Shown piece after piece: positions 49,249 to 59,471 of a stretch of 64,000 bases of DNA (position 1 is the first letter of the stretch; each line of letters starts with the position of its first letter). The stretch lies in contig NZ_JACBZT010000001.1 in NCBI RefSeq assembly GCF_013408985.1, positions 3,720,001-3,784,000 of the forward strand, given 5' to 3'. This DNA comes from Petropleomorpha daqingensis. Its GTDB lineage: Bacteria; Actinomycetota; Actinomycetes; Mycobacteriales; Geodermatophilaceae. Made by a program: the position numbers and the translations under genes. Below the pieces are notes generated by a model. It saw only the letters and a program-made list of their open reading frames with translations, had not been told where the DNA came from and did no database searches.

Positions 49249-52170
49249 TCAGCGCCCGAGCGCGACGATCTCGTCGAGCCCGGCCTGCAGGTCGGCGACC
49301 AGCCCGGCCGGGTCGGACACGGCGGACGAGTCCAGGTTGATCCCGATGCAGCAGGTGCCCTCCTGCGAGAGCAGGGTGACCATCGCGGCGCAGCCGGGCA
49401 GCGGCCCGAACGGGAACATCCGCTCGATGCGCGAGCCGGCGATGTACACCGGCTGGGTCACCCCGGGCACGTTGGACACCTGGACGTCGTTGCCGCTGGT
49501 CAGCGCGCCGGAGACGGCCCCGAGGACCGGTGCGGGCAGCCAGCCGAGCACCGGGCCGACGAGGTCGTTGACCGCCGAGGCACCGCCGGAACCTGCGCTG
49601 CGGACCGACAGCACGAACTCGCGGACCGCCGCGATGCGGGCCGCCGGGTCGGCCTCGGCCAGGTCGGCGGTGAAGCGTGCGCCGGTGAACCGGTTGCCGC
49701 CCTGCGGGTCGTCCTGCGCCCGGAGGCTGATCGGGATGCCGAGCGTGAGGCCGCCCAGCGGGGCGCCGAGCCGCTCGTGGTAGCGGCGGAAGCCGCCCAC
49801 GACCGCGGCGAGGTAGCCGTCGTTGAGCGAGCCGCCGCCGGCCTTGGCCCCGGCCTTGAGGTCGGCCAGCGGCACCTCGAGCACCTCGAGGTGCCAGTCG
49901 CCGCCGCGCGGGGTCAGCAGCTCGGAGCCGCCGTGGGCGCCGAGGCTGTGGGTGGCCGAGCGCGCGGTCCCGACGACGGTGTCGACGGCGGCGCTCGCCG
50001 CGTCCAGGGGCCGGAGCAGCCCGCCCAGCGCCCCGACACCGCCGCGGAGCACGGCGAGCGGGGCGGCCCGGACGACGTCGCTGACGTGCTCGGCGGCCAC
50101 CTCCAGCGGCGTGACCTCCTCGGGCGCGGGCACCGGCGGCTCGGGCCGGGAGGGGTCGTGCTCGGGCGAGTGGCTGTGCAGCCGGCTCATCAGCTGGACC
50201 GCGCCCAGCCCGTCGGTCGTGCTGTGGTGGGTCTTCACCACGTAGCCGGCGCGGCCGTCGGCGAGGCCCTCGACGAGCAGCACCTGCCAGAGCGGGTGGT
50301 CGCGGTCCAGCGGCCGCGAGATGAACTGGCCGACCACGTCGAGCAGCTGCCGCATCTCGCCGGGCGGGTCGAGCACCACGCGGTGCACGTGCTGGTCGAG
50401 GTCGAGCTCGGCCACGGTGACCCAGCGCGGTGCGCCCAGGCCGAGCGCCGGCTCGACGACCCGCTGGCGCATCCGCGGCACCATCCGCGACGCCCACTCG
50501 TGCGCGCCGCGCAGCCGTTCCCAGTCGGGCGCGGAGTCGAGGATCTCCAGCAGGGCGACGTTGGCGCGCAGCCGCGGGTCGGCGGCCTCGGCCCGCCACA
50601 TCGCCGTCTCCAGGGGGTTCATCTCCGCGGAGATGCCCCAGTCCAGCGGCGCGGCCGGCGGCGGGGGGCCGTCCATGCTCGCCGTCGGCTCGTGGACGTC
50701 GACCGGCTGCCCGCTGCGGCCGGTCCAGTGGGCGAGCGCGTCGACGTAGGCCGCGCGGACCTCGCCGACCTTCTCGTCGAGGCCCTCGGGGCTCCAGCCC
50801 TCCGTGGGGATCGGCGGCAGGACGCGGACCTGCACGGTCCCCGGGTGCAGCGTCGCCGCGCCGCGCCACATCAGCTCGCCGGCGTTGCGGATGACGATCG
50901 GCACGATCGGCACGCCGGCCTGCATCGCGACGTGGAAGGCGCCCTTCTTGAACGGGCCGAGCGACGGCGTGGCCGAGCGGGTGCCCTCCGGCGCGATCAC
51001 CAGCGACAGGCCCTCCTTGAGCCGCTGCACGGCCGGTTCGAGCGCCTTGCGCGCCTGGTCCTTGTCACCGCGGTCGACGAAGGCGACGTCGGCCAGCCGG
51101 AAGGCCAGCCCGAAGCCCGGGGCGTGCGCGAGCTCCTTCTTCGCGACCCCGGTGATCCCGCCGTGCAGCAGCTTCGCCAGCACCAGGACGTCGAGCTGGC
51201 TCTGGTGGTTGAACAGGAAGACGGCGGGGCGGGCGGCCAGGTGCTCGGCGCCCTGGACCTCGAGGCGGACCCCGGCCAGCGCGCTGCCGAGCTCGCCGGC
51301 GAGGGTGATGCCGAGGTCGACGGCCTCGCGGCGTGATCCGCTCAGGGAGCCCACGGCCAGCCCGGCGGCGAACCCGCCGAGCATCCCGCCCACCCCCGCG
51401 GCGGTGCGGGCGATCTCGATGGGACCGCCCCGGCCGCGCCGGCGGAAGCGGGCGATCGGCCAGGAGTAGTGGCGGGCGGCGGCGGCCAGGTCGCGGCCCG
51501 GGTTGAGCGCGCGGGCGCGCCCGACGGTGCGCAGGAAGGGCACGTCCTCGTCGCCGTTGCTGTAGGCGTAGCTCTGCGCCAGGTCGATGTCGTGCTCCTC
51601 GGCGAAGGCCTGCACCGCGGCGACCTTGCCCGCCCGCCAGAGCAGCGCGCCGCCGGGGCGGCCGGTGCACACGCCGTCGACGATCTCGACCGGCGAGACC
51701 AGCACGTGCTCGACGCCCATCGCCCGGGCCGCGGGCTCGACCTGGAACCGGGTGGCCGAGGAGGCGAGCACGACCGTGTGGCCGGCGTCGAGGTGCGCCT
51801 CGACCAGCCGCCAGGCCTCCGGGTAGAGAGCACCGGCGATGCCCTGGACGAACAGCCGCTCGCCCAGCTCGGTCAGCTCGTCCTCGGTCCGCCCGGCCCA
51901 GGCCCGCATGCCGACGACGGTGAGCCGCTCGAAGTCCTCCTCGCTGGTCACCCCGCGCAGGCCGATGAGCAGCAGCTCGCCGAGGGCGGCCGGGGTGACG
52001 TCGAGCGAGCGCAGGTGGTGCCGGGCGAAGGACGCCAGCGAGTAGCCGTCGATGACCGTGCCGTCGAAGTCGAAGAAGGCGGCGACCCGGGGCCCGGGCG
52101 GCGACGCGGCGACGTCGGCGACCAGCTGCTCCTCGGTCCACACGCCGGCGGTCGGCTGTCCGTTCGTCAC
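49249..52170 (-). CDS. HAD phosphatase-PlsC-WS/DGAT three-domain protein
   Basis: A single 973-aa frame. HAD-IB (about 28-240): DxDxT at Asp34/Asp36/Thr38, Ser137-138, Lys182, NGDEDVPF. PlsC (about 290-480): NHQSQLD (His322-Asp327), FVDRGDKD, PEGTRS (394-399), VPIVPI. WS/DGAT (about 500-973): PLW (626-628), HHSTTDG (648-654), SLNDGY (781-786). Actinobacteria usually encode HAD-PlsC and WS/DGAT as separate neighbours; here no stop separates them. GTG start overlaps plsB (GTGA). Together these could make phosphatidate, dephosphorylate it and acylate DAG to TAG. An internal ATG (Met499) could also start a separate WS/DGAT. Confidence 0.85.
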   Translation of the reverse strand: MTNGQPTAGVWTEEQLVADVAASPPGPRVAAFFDFDGTVIDGYSLASFARHHLRSLDVTPAALGELLLIGLRGVTSEEDFERLTVVGMRAWAGRTEDELTELGERLFVQGIAGALYPEAWRLVEAHLDAGHTVVLASSATRFQVEPAARAMGVEHVLVSPVEIVDGVCTGRPGGALLWRAGKVAAVQAFAEEHDIDLAQSYAYSNGDEDVPFLRTVGRARALNPGRDLAAAARHYSWPIARFRRRGRGGPIEIARTAAGVGGMLGGFAAGLAVGSLSGSRREAVDLGITLAGELGSALAGVRLEVQGAEHLAARPAVFLFNHQSQLDVLVLAKLLHGGITGVAKKELAHAPGFGLAFRLADVAFVDRGDKDQARKALEPAVQRLKEGLSLVIAPEGTRSATPSLGPFKKGAFHVAMQAGVPIVPIVIRNAGELMWRGAATLHPGTVQVRVLPPIPTEGWSPEGLDEKVGEVRAAYVDALAHWTGRSGQPVDVHEPTASMDGPPPPAAPLDWGISAEMNPLETAMWRAEAADPRLRANVALLEILDSAPDWERLRGAHEWASRMVPRMRQRVVEPALGLGAPRWVTVAELDLDQHVHRVVLDPPGEMRQLLDVVGQFISRPLDRDHPLWQVLLVEGLADGRAGYVVKTHHSTTDGLGAVQLMSRLHSHSPEHDPSRPEPPVPAPEEVTPLEVAAEHVSDVVRAAPLAVLRGGVGALGGLLRPLDAASAAVDTVVGTARSATHSLGAHGGSELLTPRGGDWHLEVLEVPLADLKAGAKAGGGSLNDGYLAAVVGGFRRYHERLGAPLGGLTLGIPISLRAQDDPQGGNRFTGARFTADLAEADPAARIAAVREFVLSVRSAGSGGASAVNDLVGPVLGWLPAPVLGAVSGALTSGNDVQVSNVPGVTQPVYIAGSRIERMFPFGPLPGCAAMVTLLSQEGTCCIGINLDSSAVSDPAGLVADLQAGLDEIVALGR

Positions 52171-54428
52171 TGCTGCGCTCCCACGATCTCCCGCTGCGCG
52201 GCGGCGTCCAGCTCGCCGATCACCACGACCCGGGCGACGACGTCGCGGACCTGGGCGGCCCACTCCTGCCGGCGTCGGGCGAGATCTTCCCGTCCGGGGT
52301 CGACCAGGTCGAGGTTGGCCGCCAGCCGCAGCGCGGAGCCGAACAGCTCGCGGGACAGCGACTCGGGGCTGCTCAGCCGGCCCTGCAGCAGCATCTGCTG
52401 GCCCACGCCGCTGCACTCGGCCAGGAAGTCGGACTCGACCACCGGCGTGCGCGGGTTGCGCGCCGCGAGCCGCTCGGCGACGACGAGCTGGGCCTCGACG
52501 AAGGACCGCAGCGCCCGGTGGGCCACCCGCAGCGGCGCGCGGCAGAGGACCTCGCGGCCGTCGGCGGTCTCCCAGTCCGGGTCCAGCCGCGCCAGCTCGG
52601 CGGACAGCCGCTCCCGGAAGGCGTCGCGCTCGGGGAAGAAGAACTCGAACTTCAGCAGGTCGCGCAGCCGCAACGCCTCGTCCCAGCGATCGGCCGGGTC
52701 GTGCAACAGCACCAGCTCCGCGATCGCCCGGTCGACGAAGTGGTGGATGGCGCTGTTGCGGTAGAACGCCGCGACGAGGTGCTGCCCCCGCTCGATGGAG
52801 TACACGGGCTCCTCGCCGCCCTCGTACACGGTCACGACCCCCTGCTGGGCGAGCGCCCCGAGCACCCGCCGTGCCCCGCGGGCGGTGCCGAGCACCGATC
52901 CGGAGTGCGGCAGGTCCCGCTCGGTCAGGTAGCCGACCAGCGGCGCGACCACCTGCTGCACCTGGCCGAGCGTCAGCGCCCGGCCCTGACCCCCGAGCAG
53001 CGCCACGGTGATCAGCGCCGTCGCCGTCGCGGGGGTGACCGAGTTGATCCCGACGGCGACCTGGAAGGCCACCTTCTGCAGGGTGAGCCGTCGTGCGTCG
53101 GGGTCCGTCGGGTCGGCGCCCGCCTGCAGCGCCGCGGCCAGCGACAGCGGCTCGGCGAACGACACGTGCACCGTCCCCAGCGGGGTGCTCACCTGCTCGC
53201 GGGCGTAGGTGGCCAGCCAGGACAGCCCCTCGCCGCGCTTGGCGGCGCCGCGCTGCTCGGCGGCCATCAGGGAGACCTCGCGCAGCTGGTCGTAGGTGAT
53301 CGAGACCGGGACGACGAAGACGTCGTCCACGCGGCCGCGCTCCACCGCGTCGGCGACGTAGCGCAGCAGGCCGTGCCGCGGCGGGCGCAGCTTGCCGGTG
53401 CGCGACCGGCCGCCCTCCATGTACCACTCGAGGTTGAACCGCTTGGCCAGCAGGAAGGCGAAGTACTCGCGGACCGCGAGCTTGTAGACCCCGTCGTCCC
53501 CGAACGTGCGGCGGATGAAGACGATGCCCGCGCGCTTGGCCAGCGACCCGAGCGGCCAGAAGCTCAGGTTGTCCCCGCCCAGCACGTGGTTGCGCGGGAA
53601 GTCGTGGCGCGCGAGGACGTCGGCCAGGACGAGGGGGTCGACGTAGGAACGGTGGCTGGGCAGGAAGACCAGCGGGGCGCGGCGGTTGAGCTCGCGCAGC
53701 CGCGCCAGCCCGGCGGTGTCGGCGTCCACGGTCCACGCGCGGGCGTGCAGCGGCCGGAAGATCGACCGGAACAGCTCCACCGCGGCCGGGTCGATGGCCG
53801 CGACCAGACCGTGCAGGTCGGCGACCGCCTCGGCGAGGACCTCGTCCTCGGGTCGCTCCAGCCGCTCGGCGAGGGCGCGGACCTCACGGTGGAACTCGGG
53901 GCTGGCCTCGATCGCCTCGACGACCTGCCGCGGCACCTTGACCCGGTCACCGACGACGCTGCGCTCGGCGCGGTCGAGGGCGAGCTCGGCCTGGGCGGCG
54001 ACGAAGCCGGCCAGCGATCCCGCGCCGTCCCAGCGCCGGGCGAGCTCGGCGACGGTGGCCGGCTCGGCGACGACGACCCGCGCGCGCTCGGGATCGCGGC
54101 GCAGCGCCGCCGCCTGCATCGGCCGCGGCGGCCGGCGGGGGATCGGGGGAGCGGCCGAGGTGAGCCGGGCCCGCCGCCCCCGGCGGCGCCCCTGCCCCTC
54201 GTCGGTCTGCCGCGGGCGCCAGGCGACCCGCAGGGCGGTCACGACGGTCTCGGGACCGGCCGTCGGCAGCAGGTCGCGCAGCGCGTCGCCGTGGAGCGGC
54301 AGGACCGCGGCGTCGGCACCGCCGTCGAGCTCGCCCAGGGCCTCGGTCAGCAGGCGCCGCTCCACCTCGCTCCTGGCGTCGGTGAGCACGAGGAGTGGGG
54401 TGTCGGTCCGGCTCGACAGTGCGGTCAT
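52167..54428 (-). CDS. plsB: Glycerol-3-phosphate acyltransferase
   Basis: A 753-aa PlsB-type acyltransferase that makes lysophosphatidate from glycerol-3-phosphate. The catalytic block is LPSHRSYVDPLVL (His259-x4-Asp264), then FIRRTFG and YMEGGRSRTGK. The length fits mycobacterial PlsB2 (~790 aa). ATG with GGAGAGG upstream. It immediately precedes the fused HAD-PlsC-WS/DGAT gene, so the product feeds the next enzyme. Confidence 0.9.
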   Translation of the reverse strand: MTALSSRTDTPLLVLTDARSEVERRLLTEALGELDGGADAAVLPLHGDALRDLLPTAGPETVVTALRVAWRPRQTDEGQGRRRGRRARLTSAAPPIPRRPPRPMQAAALRRDPERARVVVAEPATVAELARRWDGAGSLAGFVAAQAELALDRAERSVVGDRVKVPRQVVEAIEASPEFHREVRALAERLERPEDEVLAEAVADLHGLVAAIDPAAVELFRSIFRPLHARAWTVDADTAGLARLRELNRRAPLVFLPSHRSYVDPLVLADVLARHDFPRNHVLGGDNLSFWPLGSLAKRAGIVFIRRTFGDDGVYKLAVREYFAFLLAKRFNLEWYMEGGRSRTGKLRPPRHGLLRYVADAVERGRVDDVFVVPVSITYDQLREVSLMAAEQRGAAKRGEGLSWLATYAREQVSTPLGTVHVSFAEPLSLAAALQAGADPTDPDARRLTLQKVAFQVAVGINSVTPATATALITVALLGGQGRALTLGQVQQVVAPLVGYLTERDLPHSGSVLGTARGARRVLGALAQQGVVTVYEGGEEPVYSIERGQHLVAAFYRNSAIHHFVDRAIAELVLLHDPADRWDEALRLRDLLKFEFFFPERDAFRERLSAELARLDPDWETADGREVLCRAPLRVAHRALRSFVEAQLVVAERLAARNPRTPVVESDFLAECSGVGQQMLLQGRLSSPESLSRELFGSALRLAANLDLVDPGREDLARRRQEWAAQVRDVVARVVVIGELDAAAQREIVGAQQ

Positions 54429-54481
54429 GCCTCTCCTCGGGAGGAGCCGATCCCACACCGACCCGGGGAGCCGCGACCCGA

Positions 54482-55498
54482 TCACCGATCACCCGGGTCG
54501 GTGCGCAGGGTGGCGCGCAGGGCCTCCAGGCCGCTGTAGCGAGGCCGCCAACCTAGCCGCTCCCGGGCCTTGGTGGTGTCCATGATCGCCGGGTGGCTGA
54601 ACGCCTCCACCCACTCGGCGGCCGGGGGCAGGAAGGGCAGCCGCGAGATCGCGCGGGCGGCGAGCTCGGCCGGCGCGGCCGGCACCGGGATCGGCAGCGC
54701 CCCGTACTCGCGGGCGACGTCGACGGCGGTCAGCACGCCGTCCCCGGCGATGTTGTAGGCCCCCGGCGGCCCTTCGCCGAGCGCGCACAGCAGCAGGGCC
54801 CGGCCGACGTCGTCCTCGTGCACGAACTGCACCGGCATCCTCGGCACCACGACCGGCACCGGGACGGGCAGCCGGCGGTTGGCCGCCTCGGCGAGCCGGC
54901 GGCCAAGGGGCGCGAGCGGCCCGGGCAGCAGGTCCTTGGCCCCGACGGTGTTCGGACCGAGCACCACCGGCGGCCGCAGCAGGTAGAGGTCGAGCTCCGG
55001 GTGCTCGGCCGACTCGGCCGCCAGCAGCTCCTCGACCTCGGCCTTCTCCTGCGCGTAGAACAGCCGGGCCGCCGGTCGCACCGGCCAGTCCTCGGTCATC
55101 CCGATCGGGTTGTCGCGGTGGAAGCCGTAGGCGGCGATCGACGAGGCGTAGACCAACCGGCGCGCCCCGGCCTCGGCCGCGGCGCGGAACACGTTGAGCG
55201 TGCCCTCGACGTTGATCGCGCGGGCGGTCTCCCGGGGGGCGTTGCCGGTGATCAGGAAGGCCAGGTGGACGACGACGTCGGCGCCGGCGAACGCCTCGCG
55301 CAGGGTGTCCGGGTCGCGGACGTCGCCGCGGCGGTAGGCCATCTTCGTCCAGCCGCGCTCGGCCGGGTCGAACGGCCGCCGGGCCAGCCCGAGGACCCGC
55401 TCCACGCGGGGTTCGTCCTGCAGCAGCGGCACCAGTCCCGAGCCGAACGTGCCCGTCGGACCGGTGACGGCGACGGTCAGGCCCCGCTCGGGGCTCAC
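54482..55498 (-). CDS. NAD-dependent epimerase/dehydratase-like SDR
   Basis: A 338-aa extended SDR: Rossmann TGPTGTFGSGL near residue 12, VVHLAFLI, YASSIAAYG and the Tyr-Lys pair in FYAQEKAEV. It could reduce a ketone or modify a sugar or lipid. Between plsB and the second WS/DGAT. GTG start overlaps the upstream gene's stop. Confidence 0.8.
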   Translation of the reverse strand: MSPERGLTVAVTGPTGTFGSGLVPLLQDEPRVERVLGLARRPFDPAERGWTKMAYRRGDVRDPDTLREAFAGADVVVHLAFLITGNAPRETARAINVEGTLNVFRAAAEAGARRLVYASSIAAYGFHRDNPIGMTEDWPVRPAARLFYAQEKAEVEELLAAESAEHPELDLYLLRPPVVLGPNTVGAKDLLPGPLAPLGRRLAEAANRRLPVPVPVVVPRMPVQFVHEDDVGRALLLCALGEGPPGAYNIAGDGVLTAVDVAREYGALPIPVPAAPAELAARAISRLPFLPPAAEWVEAFSHPAIMDTTKARERLGWRPRYSGLEALRATLRTDPGDR

Positions 55499-56931
55499 TG
55501 CTGGGCCGCCGCCGACTCCTTGGCCGGCTTCTCCTTCGCCGGCGCCTTGCCGGCCAGCTCGGTGAGCTCGTCGACGCCGCGCCGGATGCCCGTGGCGAGG
55601 ACGTCGACGTCCGGGAAGGCGTCGAAGTCGGCGTTGATCCCGAAGGTCATCGTGTTCAGGTAGGAGAAGATCCCGATCGACACCCGGGTGCCGCCGCCGA
55701 TCGGCACGTAGGCGTGCGCGGAGACCATCCGCTTGCCGAGCACGTACAGCGGCACCCGCGGGCCCGGCACGTTCGTGGTCACCGCCTGCGCCCAGAACTG
55801 GCCCAGCTCCATGGCCGCCCGCACGCCGAGGGACAGCAGCGTCGGCGCCACGAAGTCGGCCATCGCGATGATCGAGCGGGCGTCGACCGCCTGCATCGAG
55901 CGCTTGTAGTCGTCCATCTGCCGGCGGATCCGGGCCAGCCGCTCGGCCGGGTCCGGCTCGCCGACCGGCAGGTCGACGAACACGGCGGACACCCGGTTGT
56001 CGAGGGAGCCGCGCTCGCCGGGACGGCGGACCGAGACCGGCACCATCGACCGGACGACGGCCTTGTCCGACAGCGCACCGCGGCCCTGCAGCAGGTCGCG
56101 GAACCCGCGGGTGATCGCGGTCAGGACGACGTCGTTGACCGTGCCGCCCAGCGCCGTCCGGGCCGCTTTGAACTCCTCGAACTGCGCGTCGGTCCACGCC
56201 CAGCGCCGGTGCGGGCCGATCGGGCCGGTGAGCGTGCGGGCCATGGGGGTGGTGGCCTGCCGGGCCAGCGACGGCAGGCTGGAGGCCAGTGACTTGCCCG
56301 AGCCGAGCAGCCCCTTCGCCGTCCTGGTCGCGGTGCCGGACCCGGGCAGCGCGGTGAGCTGGCGCAGCGGGTGGGCGAGGGCGTCCTGGACGGCCCCGGC
56401 CAGCAGCTCCGCCGAGGAGGGGCTGCGCTGCGCCGTCCACTCCTTGGGCTCGGCCTGCTTCACGTCGGGGCTGAGGTCGAAGATCACCTGCATCAGGTCG
56501 GTGCCGGCGATGCCGTCGACCATGCAGTGGTGGACCTTGGAGATGATCGCCCAGCGGTCGTCCGCCAGGCCCTCGACGAGCCAGACCTCCCACAGCGGCT
56601 TGGCCATGTCCAGACGCTGGCCGAGCACGCGGCCGGCCAGGTTGCGCAGCTGCTCGTCGCTGCCCGGCCGGGGCAGGGCGGTGTGCCGCACGTGGTACAG
56701 GATCTGGAAGTGCGGGTCGTCGACCCACATCGGGCGGCCGAGGTTGAGCGGCACCTCCCGGACCCGCTGCCGGTAGCGGGGTACCAGCGGCAGCTTCGAC
56801 AGCAGCAGCCGGACGAGGTCGCCGTAGGAGGGCGCGGGGCCCTCGAAGACGGCGACCGATCCCACGTGCAGCGGGGTGTTCTCGCCCTCTGCGTAGTAGA
56901 AACCGGCATCGGTCGGGCTCATGCGGTCCAC
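55495..56931 (-). CDS. Wax ester synthase/diacylglycerol acyltransferase
   Basis: A 478-aa WS/DGAT with catalytic HHCMVDG at 134-140, KPLWEVWLVEGL (PLW), GGTVNDVVLTAITRGFR and NVPGPRVPLYVLG. It makes storage TAG or wax esters from acyl-CoA. A second, complete WS/DGAT beside the fused one shows redundancy or different substrate choice. GTG with AGGGAG upstream; an ATG nine bases on is possible. Confidence 0.9.
   Translation of the reverse strand: MDRMSPTDAGFYYAEGENTPLHVGSVAVFEGPAPSYGDLVRLLLSKLPLVPRYRQRVREVPLNLGRPMWVDDPHFQILYHVRHTALPRPGSDEQLRNLAGRVLGQRLDMAKPLWEVWLVEGLADDRWAIISKVHHCMVDGIAGTDLMQVIFDLSPDVKQAEPKEWTAQRSPSSAELLAGAVQDALAHPLRQLTALPGSGTATRTAKGLLGSGKSLASSLPSLARQATTPMARTLTGPIGPHRRWAWTDAQFEEFKAARTALGGTVNDVVLTAITRGFRDLLQGRGALSDKAVVRSMVPVSVRRPGERGSLDNRVSAVFVDLPVGEPDPAERLARIRRQMDDYKRSMQAVDARSIIAMADFVAPTLLSLGVRAAMELGQFWAQAVTTNVPGPRVPLYVLGKRMVSAHAYVPIGGGTRVSIGIFSYLNTMTFGINADFDAFPDVDVLATGIRRGVDELTELAGKAPAKEKPAKESAAAQQ

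Positions 56932-57027: not shown

Positions 57028-59471
<2,444 letters not shown>

Follow-up and report, generated by a model that had tools for sequence, protein, structure and literature searches.

The question raised by this locus is whether one bacterial gene can encode an enzyme leading from lysophosphatidate to triacylglycerol. The stretch of DNA analysed here (the window) comprises 64,000 nucleotides of Petropleomorpha daqingensis, positions 3,720,001-3,784,000 of a one-contig 5.38-Mb genome, in which a first-pass annotation made from the letters alone had described, with no strand stated, an unbroken frame of 973 codons carrying intact motifs of a HAD-IB phosphatase, a PlsC acyltransferase and a WS/DGAT. 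The frame was confirmed on the minus strand, where reading from 52170 to 49249 gave 973 residues followed by a stop, and the plus strand at 49249-52170 was interrupted by a stop. The gene and its parts are these:

49249..52170, minus strand: fused gene HAD-IB phosphatase / PlsC / WS-DGAT, 973 amino acids, GTG start, same frame in 20 of 80 kept loci
51529..52080, minus strand: HAD domain, residues 31-214, with DFDGT at 34-38 (PF12710, 1.5e-33)
50890..51267, minus strand: PlsC acyltransferase domain, residues 302-427, with NHQSQLD and EGTRS (PF01553, 1.1e-33)
50623..50724, minus strand: Pro/Ala-rich linker, residues 483-516, with low model confidence (pLDDT) and a ratio of nonsynonymous to synonymous change (pN/pS) of 0.73
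49819..50622, minus strand: WS/DGAT catalytic domain (WS_DGAT_cat), residues 517-784, with HHSTTDG at 648-654 (PF03007, 2.9e-49)
49267..49698, minus strand: WS/DGAT C-terminal domain (WS_DGAT_C), residues 825-968 (PF06974, 2.8e-15)

An open frame alone is weak evidence here, because the GC-rich window (GC 0.743) is full of long stop-free stretches, 12 of which reach at least 900 codons across the six frames. The three-domain fusion frame is nevertheless real, and we accept it as such because the same frame is conserved in relatives. Third-position GC (0.98, 1.00 and 0.98) was coding-like throughout, the linker included (1.00). The genome collection held at least 551 relatives, of which the best 80 were kept in a ranking by the fused query that favours fused forms; loci were classified both as the set L007-L086 and as all those with a match at E 1e-40. 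Both halves stood in one frame in 20 of the best 80 (L007-L025 and L027; 18 complete, 2 ended by contig ends), 8 of them from Geodermatophilus or Blastococcus and 12 from Pseudonocardia. The comparison of the junction in related genomes, which the annotation had proposed, disclosed no stop in these 20 fused relatives and, in some other lineages, a stop between the split genes. Among the remaining 60 loci, the WS/DGAT gene lay directly after HAD-PlsC in seven, after a gap of 1.0-1.2 kb in three, before it in one and on the opposite strand in one; the other 48 had no WS/DGAT at E 1e-40 within the locus DNA examined, and at least four of them (L029, L040, L043 and L082) match the WS/DGAT half just past an in-frame stop. 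The statement that HAD-PlsC and WS/DGAT are neighbouring separate genes therefore holds in some other lineages (7 of the 80 loci, and further ones across a stop). A fusion in more distant lineages was considered for L026, L029, L040, L043 and L082, which match both halves, and was discarded: each is interrupted at the junction by one or more in-frame stops and is therefore split.

Among 112 whole genomes of Geodermatophilaceae, a complete fused gene was present in 14, that of the window included; in one more (G327; L120 / L123) the frame of the fused gene is broken around codons 721-745, in the WS/DGAT loop, which may be a sequencing error or a pseudogene, two had HAD-PlsC only, and 95 had nothing at E 1e-100. 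Of 296 genomes sampled across the phylum, 157 matched at 1e-20 and, among the matches listed, the fusion was found only in the window's own genome; in 249 genomes of the order, 12 matched at 1e-140 and the seven that were fused all came from the window's family. In 120 genomes of one more family, presumably Pseudonocardiaceae, five matched at 1e-150 and none was fused, a sample that we take to be thin for Pseudonocardia given the 12 fused loci found elsewhere in that genus. Could a stop or frameshift at the junction have been missed in sequencing or assembly? One relative, G327, does have a frame break, but it is inside the WS/DGAT loop and none was found at the junction, and the same frame recurred in 20 of the 80 kept relatives, from separate records, and in 14 of the 112 family genomes. 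This conservation rules out a chance frame, and we consider the probability of an artefact negligible.

The sequence of the protein is in keeping with three enzymes. All four Pfam domains exceeded their cut-offs, and the catalytic motifs were intact: DFDGT (34-38) in the HAD domain, NHQSQLD (321-327) and EGTRS (within 393-399) in PlsC, and PLW (within 620-628), HHSTTDG (648-654) and ND (within 781-789) in the WS/DGAT half, HHxxxDG, PLW and ND being key motifs of WS/DGAT enzymes (PMC4520822, in the part cited). Across the 19 fused proteins compared, DFDGT, NHQSQLD and EGTR were invariant. The HAD domain scored 140.6 bits against TIGR01490 (HAD-SF-IB-hyp1; cut-off 98.3) and the PlsC domain 106.7 bits against TIGR00530 (AGP_acyltrn; cut-off 102.95), so that both belong to these families, and the WS/DGAT half has the Pfam pair PF03007 and PF06974 plus the three motifs. 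An AlphaFold2 model built on a 47-row alignment gave a mean pLDDT of 86.3 with each domain confidently folded. Four segments fell below 50 (1-7, 484-500, 703-715 and 819-826), and since 484-500 was the sole one between domains, the Pro-rich linker, already taken for a domain joint in the annotation, is in the model a disordered joint between domains. The inter-domain arrangement was not taken from the model because its overall score (pTM) was 0.57. In a structure search the WS/DGAT entries 6chj and 7nxg ranked first, and the HAD entry 3fvv and the PlsC entry 5kym (Thermotoga maritima) came further down, among many condensation domains.

We estimated pN/pS in nine Geodermatophilaceae proteins and found 0.22 for HAD, the most constrained domain, 0.31 for PlsC, 0.30 and 0.33 for the two WS parts and 0.73 for the linker. 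Purifying selection thus acts on all three domains in this family.

An open frame does not by itself exclude two proteins in the cell, made by an internal start or by cleavage in the linker. The linker is disordered, and Met517 was conserved in all 19 fused proteins. Met499, which had been proposed as a start that could still give a separate WS/DGAT, occurred in 1 of the 19 and was preceded in the window by a ribosome-binding-like energy of -2.2, on which grounds we rejected it. The value before Met517 was -4.7, both in the window and as a mean over the 19 proteins, against a background mean of -4.0; at 38% of background sites the energy was equally strong or stronger. Met499 and Met517 were the only starts in the scanned stretch of the window, neither with a strong ribosome-binding-like site. 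In contrast, 6 of 9 split loci had a start codon in frame ahead of the WS/DGAT domain at -8.3 or stronger and 3 were weaker (nine of the ten same-order split loci were used, L124 being dropped). Since only one of the 19 proteins has Met499 and no strong site is present, a separate WS/DGAT product from the window gene appears unlikely, and we regard the production of two proteins by either route as improbable. Within 45 codons before Met517, a start codon at -8.3 or stronger was found in four of the 19 fused genes (L011, L014, L015 and L024). Those of two Pseudonocardia are strong-site GTG codons within the linker (residue 490 of L014, -12.7; residue 495 of L015, -10.0), possibly remnants of an old WS/DGAT start, and they leave room for internal initiation in these two.

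The trees, built from chosen rows that represent a subset of the loci, bear on the origin of the fusion. In the HAD-PlsC tree (55 rows) all 21 fused rows formed one clade with an SH-aLRT value of 100, placed among split HAD-PlsC forms; in the WS/DGAT tree (48 rows) the 19 fused rows did the same, again with SH-aLRT 100; and in the joint tree (26 rows) the 19 fused rows made one clade with support 100/100. The first two were quick trees with SH-aLRT as sole support, and long branches among outer rows drew a warning from the program. L023 and L025, which end at contig ends, were excluded from the WS/DGAT tree, the motif table, the start-site test and the rate table, and the own-genome paralogs L002 and L005 were excluded from the WS/DGAT tree, no HHxxxDG frame having been found in the DNA examined. 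Split adjacent genes in the same order were present in some Pseudonocardia, a Nocardioides, Panacagrimonas and a deltaproteobacterial bin, and in G545 the split genes share a frame with a single TAG codon between them, so that a precursor state is available. The simplest history suggested by these data is a single fusion event in which the stop between two adjacent genes was lost. A transfer from Pseudonocardia to Geodermatophilaceae may have occurred, as hinted at by the quick HAD-PlsC tree, in which the latter fall within the former, but the joint tree, which makes them sister clades (97/93), does not suggest it.

The genes preceding the fused gene on the same strand are the following:

52167..54485, minus strand: plsB-type glycerol-3-phosphate acyltransferase, 772 amino acids (NF002886 over cut-off; PF19277)
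54482..55498, minus strand: NAD-dependent epimerase/dehydratase family protein, 338 amino acids, with a GTGA overlap with plsB (PF01370, 4.9e-27)
55495..56931, minus strand: second, free-standing WS/DGAT, 478 amino acids, with a GTGA overlap with the epimerase-family gene (TIGR02946 over cut-off; PF03007, 2e-68)
57028..58035, minus strand: alpha/beta hydrolase (PF12697, 6e-24), with synteny kept in all 6 Geodermatophilus loci

The plsB gene had been described as coupled directly upstream. Its position stands, the plsB stop overlapping the fused-gene start by 4 bp (GTGA, 52167-52170), and each of the 20 fused loci had plsB immediately upstream; translational coupling of the two is a presumption drawn from that overlap. 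The order is alpha/beta hydrolase, WS/DGAT, epimerase-family gene, plsB and fused gene, the last four linked by three GTGA overlaps, and on this arrangement the genes likely form one operon, with the alpha/beta hydrolase possibly the first gene. The longer cluster was conserved in the six Geodermatophilus loci; in the locus DNA examined, neither the 2 Blastococcus nor the 12 Pseudonocardia loci showed it.

On the basis of these results we believe, with a probability of roughly 0.55, that the polypeptide is an enzyme joining three consecutive steps of the Kennedy pathway, from lysophosphatidate to triacylglycerol. PlsB, encoded directly upstream, would supply lysophosphatidate; the PlsC domain would acylate it to phosphatidate; the HAD-IB domain would remove the phosphate to leave diacylglycerol; and the WS/DGAT domain would add the third acyl group from acyl-CoA, yielding triacylglycerol. 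The annotation's proposal that PlsB and the fused protein would between them cover the acyl steps of triacylglycerol synthesis agrees with the gene content. At the level of domain families the PlsC and WS/DGAT chemistry is established, while the action of HAD on phosphatidate and triacylglycerol as the main product are readings of the sequence. A membrane location and a hand-over of intermediates between domains may be supposed. The fuller version, in which the single polypeptide passes the intermediates between its own domains with HAD as a phosphatidate phosphatase in the middle step, is tentative, and we would put it somewhat below even odds.

What weighs against the proposal concerns the distribution of the gene, its HAD step and its WS/DGAT step. 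A copy was present in only 15 of the 112 family genomes, in a patchy manner. The genome itself contains 10 PAP2 matches, with which HAD would not be needed as a phosphatidate phosphatase, 6 WS/DGAT C-terminal matches, 5 of them outside the fused gene, and 10 acyltransferase matches, with the fused gene and plsB among them; because of these matches elsewhere, no step needs the fused protein by elimination, and the idea that HAD is the only candidate phosphatase is ruled out by the PAP2 matches. The substrate of HAD might instead be lysophosphatidate, a lipid resembling phosphatidylglycerol phosphate, or some small soluble phosphate, with PAP2 enzymes making diacylglycerol and the fusion coupling PlsC and WS/DGAT only. 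In line with this, the best curated enzyme models for the HAD domain were histidinol-phosphatases, far under cut-off, the nearest solved HAD structure (3fvv) bears a title that gives its function as unknown, and HAD-only matches, without PlsC, were numerous in other genomes among the matches listed. WS/DGAT genes are reported near AGPAT-HAD in Actinomycetota, Alpha- and Gammaproteobacteria, and the passages concerned add that the functionality remains to be elucidated (PMC10351704). On the other hand, HAD and PlsC matched together in all 80 kept relatives (a count biased by the ranking with the fused query), HAD had the lowest pN/pS in Geodermatophilaceae, and WS/DGAT adjoins HAD-PlsC in several lineages, which points to a glycerolipid path. 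We find another HAD substrate possible and rather doubtful.

In the same genome, a 696-residue frame (G000:C1:3454769-3456859; L143:1770-3860, plus strand) joins an N-terminal PAP2_3 domain to a C-terminal WS/DGAT, and had no plasmid match at E 1e-20. It is a second joining of a phosphatase-type domain with WS/DGAT, and we counted it in favour of the three-step enzyme. NCBI annotation is said to have a name for PAP2/O-acyltransferase fusions.

It is also conceivable that the WS/DGAT domain is no triacylglycerol synthase: its acyl acceptor could be a different alcohol, or the domain could be accessory, having been lost or given a new use in certain lineages. The WS/DGAT half scored 307.6 bits against TIGR02946, just under the cut-off of 309.95, and the second WS/DGAT of the likely operon outscored it with 420 bits. 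In Pseudonocardia L017-L020, L022 and L024 the WS/DGAT motifs were altered, with the HAD and PlsC motifs kept (DFDGT and NHQSQLD being invariant): ND was lost in 5 of the 19 fused proteins (L018, L019, L020, L022 and L024) and HHxxxDG in one (L019, HQSVTDE), which implies that the third domain is dispensable or changed in some Pseudonocardia. In all four split counterparts beside HAD-PlsC in the same order (L090, L092, L093 and L094, from genomes that we take to be mycobacteria), SHxxTDG replaced HHxxxDG, the form of most rows. The rates, obtained from groups of 3-36 pairs, differed among three Pseudonocardia groups that were picked after the motifs were known. In L017/L019/L024 (3 pairs) the WS parts reached 0.54 and 0.72, the latter for the C-terminal part, against 0.34 for HAD and 0.41 for PlsC; in L018/L020/L022 (3 pairs) the altered WS parts kept low values (0.26 and 0.34), the pattern that an altered function would leave, which favours a shift of role in these proteins over simple decay; and L014/L015/L016/L021 (0.38 and 0.36) were constrained much as the window's family is. 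In the window protein and the eight other aligned Geodermatophilaceae the motifs were intact and under purifying selection, and the fold is typical of WS/DGAT. These comparisons suggest a functional WS/DGAT half in the Geodermatophilaceae, and one that is relaxed or altered in some Pseudonocardia. That the domain makes something other than triacylglycerol, or is accessory, seems to us unlikely, more so than another substrate for HAD.

Why a three-step enzyme would matter is best seen from the source of diacylglycerol. Eukaryotic PAP1 enzymes are of the HAD type. For actinobacteria the source of diacylglycerol for triacylglycerol is unsettled in the parts of the literature drawn on here: PAP2 contributes and HAD has been proposed (PMC4850399, PMC10351704, PMC8225852), two functional phosphatidate phosphatase proteins being described in M. 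smegmatis and PAP1 enzymes being given as absent in prokaryotes (PMC8225852, in part). With a natural protein that combines HAD, PlsC and WS/DGAT, this question could be put to the test by purifying a single protein and making three point changes. Pseudonocardia proteins whose WS/DGAT motifs are altered would be natural controls, and the fused protein may serve as a tool for oil production.

No report of the triple fusion was found in the open-access literature, a search in which subscription papers were mostly outside. The closest system is that of Rhodococcus jostii RHA1, whose PlsC is a predicted AGPAT-HAD fusion within an atf9-plsB-plsC operon; in the passages cited, HAD-type hydrolases (the HAD part of PlsC) were proposed as the phosphatidate phosphatase, so that one operon would encode all of triacylglycerol synthesis (Amara 2016, PMC4850399). 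Rv2483c and/or Rv2484c are listed in the cited parts of two further papers (PMC10699116, PMC6333902). The window gene shares with the RHA1 PlsC and with M. tuberculosis Rv2483c the HAD-PlsC core, the plsB and WS/DGAT partners and the proposed phosphatase role, but in those two the WS/DGAT is a separate gene (PMC4850399, in part), whereas the window gene carries it as its own C-terminal half. The window locus can therefore be seen as a variant form of the atf9-plsB-plsC operons, with AGPAT-HAD, plsB and WS/DGAT together and the WS/DGAT fused to AGPAT-HAD. Likewise, the clusters of PMC10351704 bring the same two genes close together and allow the same pathway inference, but as separate genes, fusion being mentioned in those passages for AGPAT and HAD only. 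The enzymes of Marinobacter aquaeolei (6chj) and Acinetobacter baylyi (7nxg) match the C-terminal half in fold and sequence, although they are stand-alone and show about 20% identity to it in the structure alignment. The PAP2_3-WS/DGAT protein of the same genome also unites a phosphatase-type domain with WS/DGAT, but PAP2_3 is not HAD, PlsC is absent and the gene lies away from the operon. ElbD of Myxococcales is a multifunctional protein with FarA, FadD, ACP and PlsC-like domains, so that a PlsC-like domain stands in a multi-enzyme lipid protein as in the window, but it belongs to an ether-lipid path and the passage describing it names neither HAD nor WS/DGAT (PMC11948995). The HAD-PlsC fusion, the idea of HAD as a phosphatidate phosphatase and the neighbouring WS/DGAT gene are thus already published, whereas the triple fusion, its apparently single origin, the purifying selection on its three domains in the window's family and the loss of WS/DGAT motifs in some Pseudonocardia are new here.

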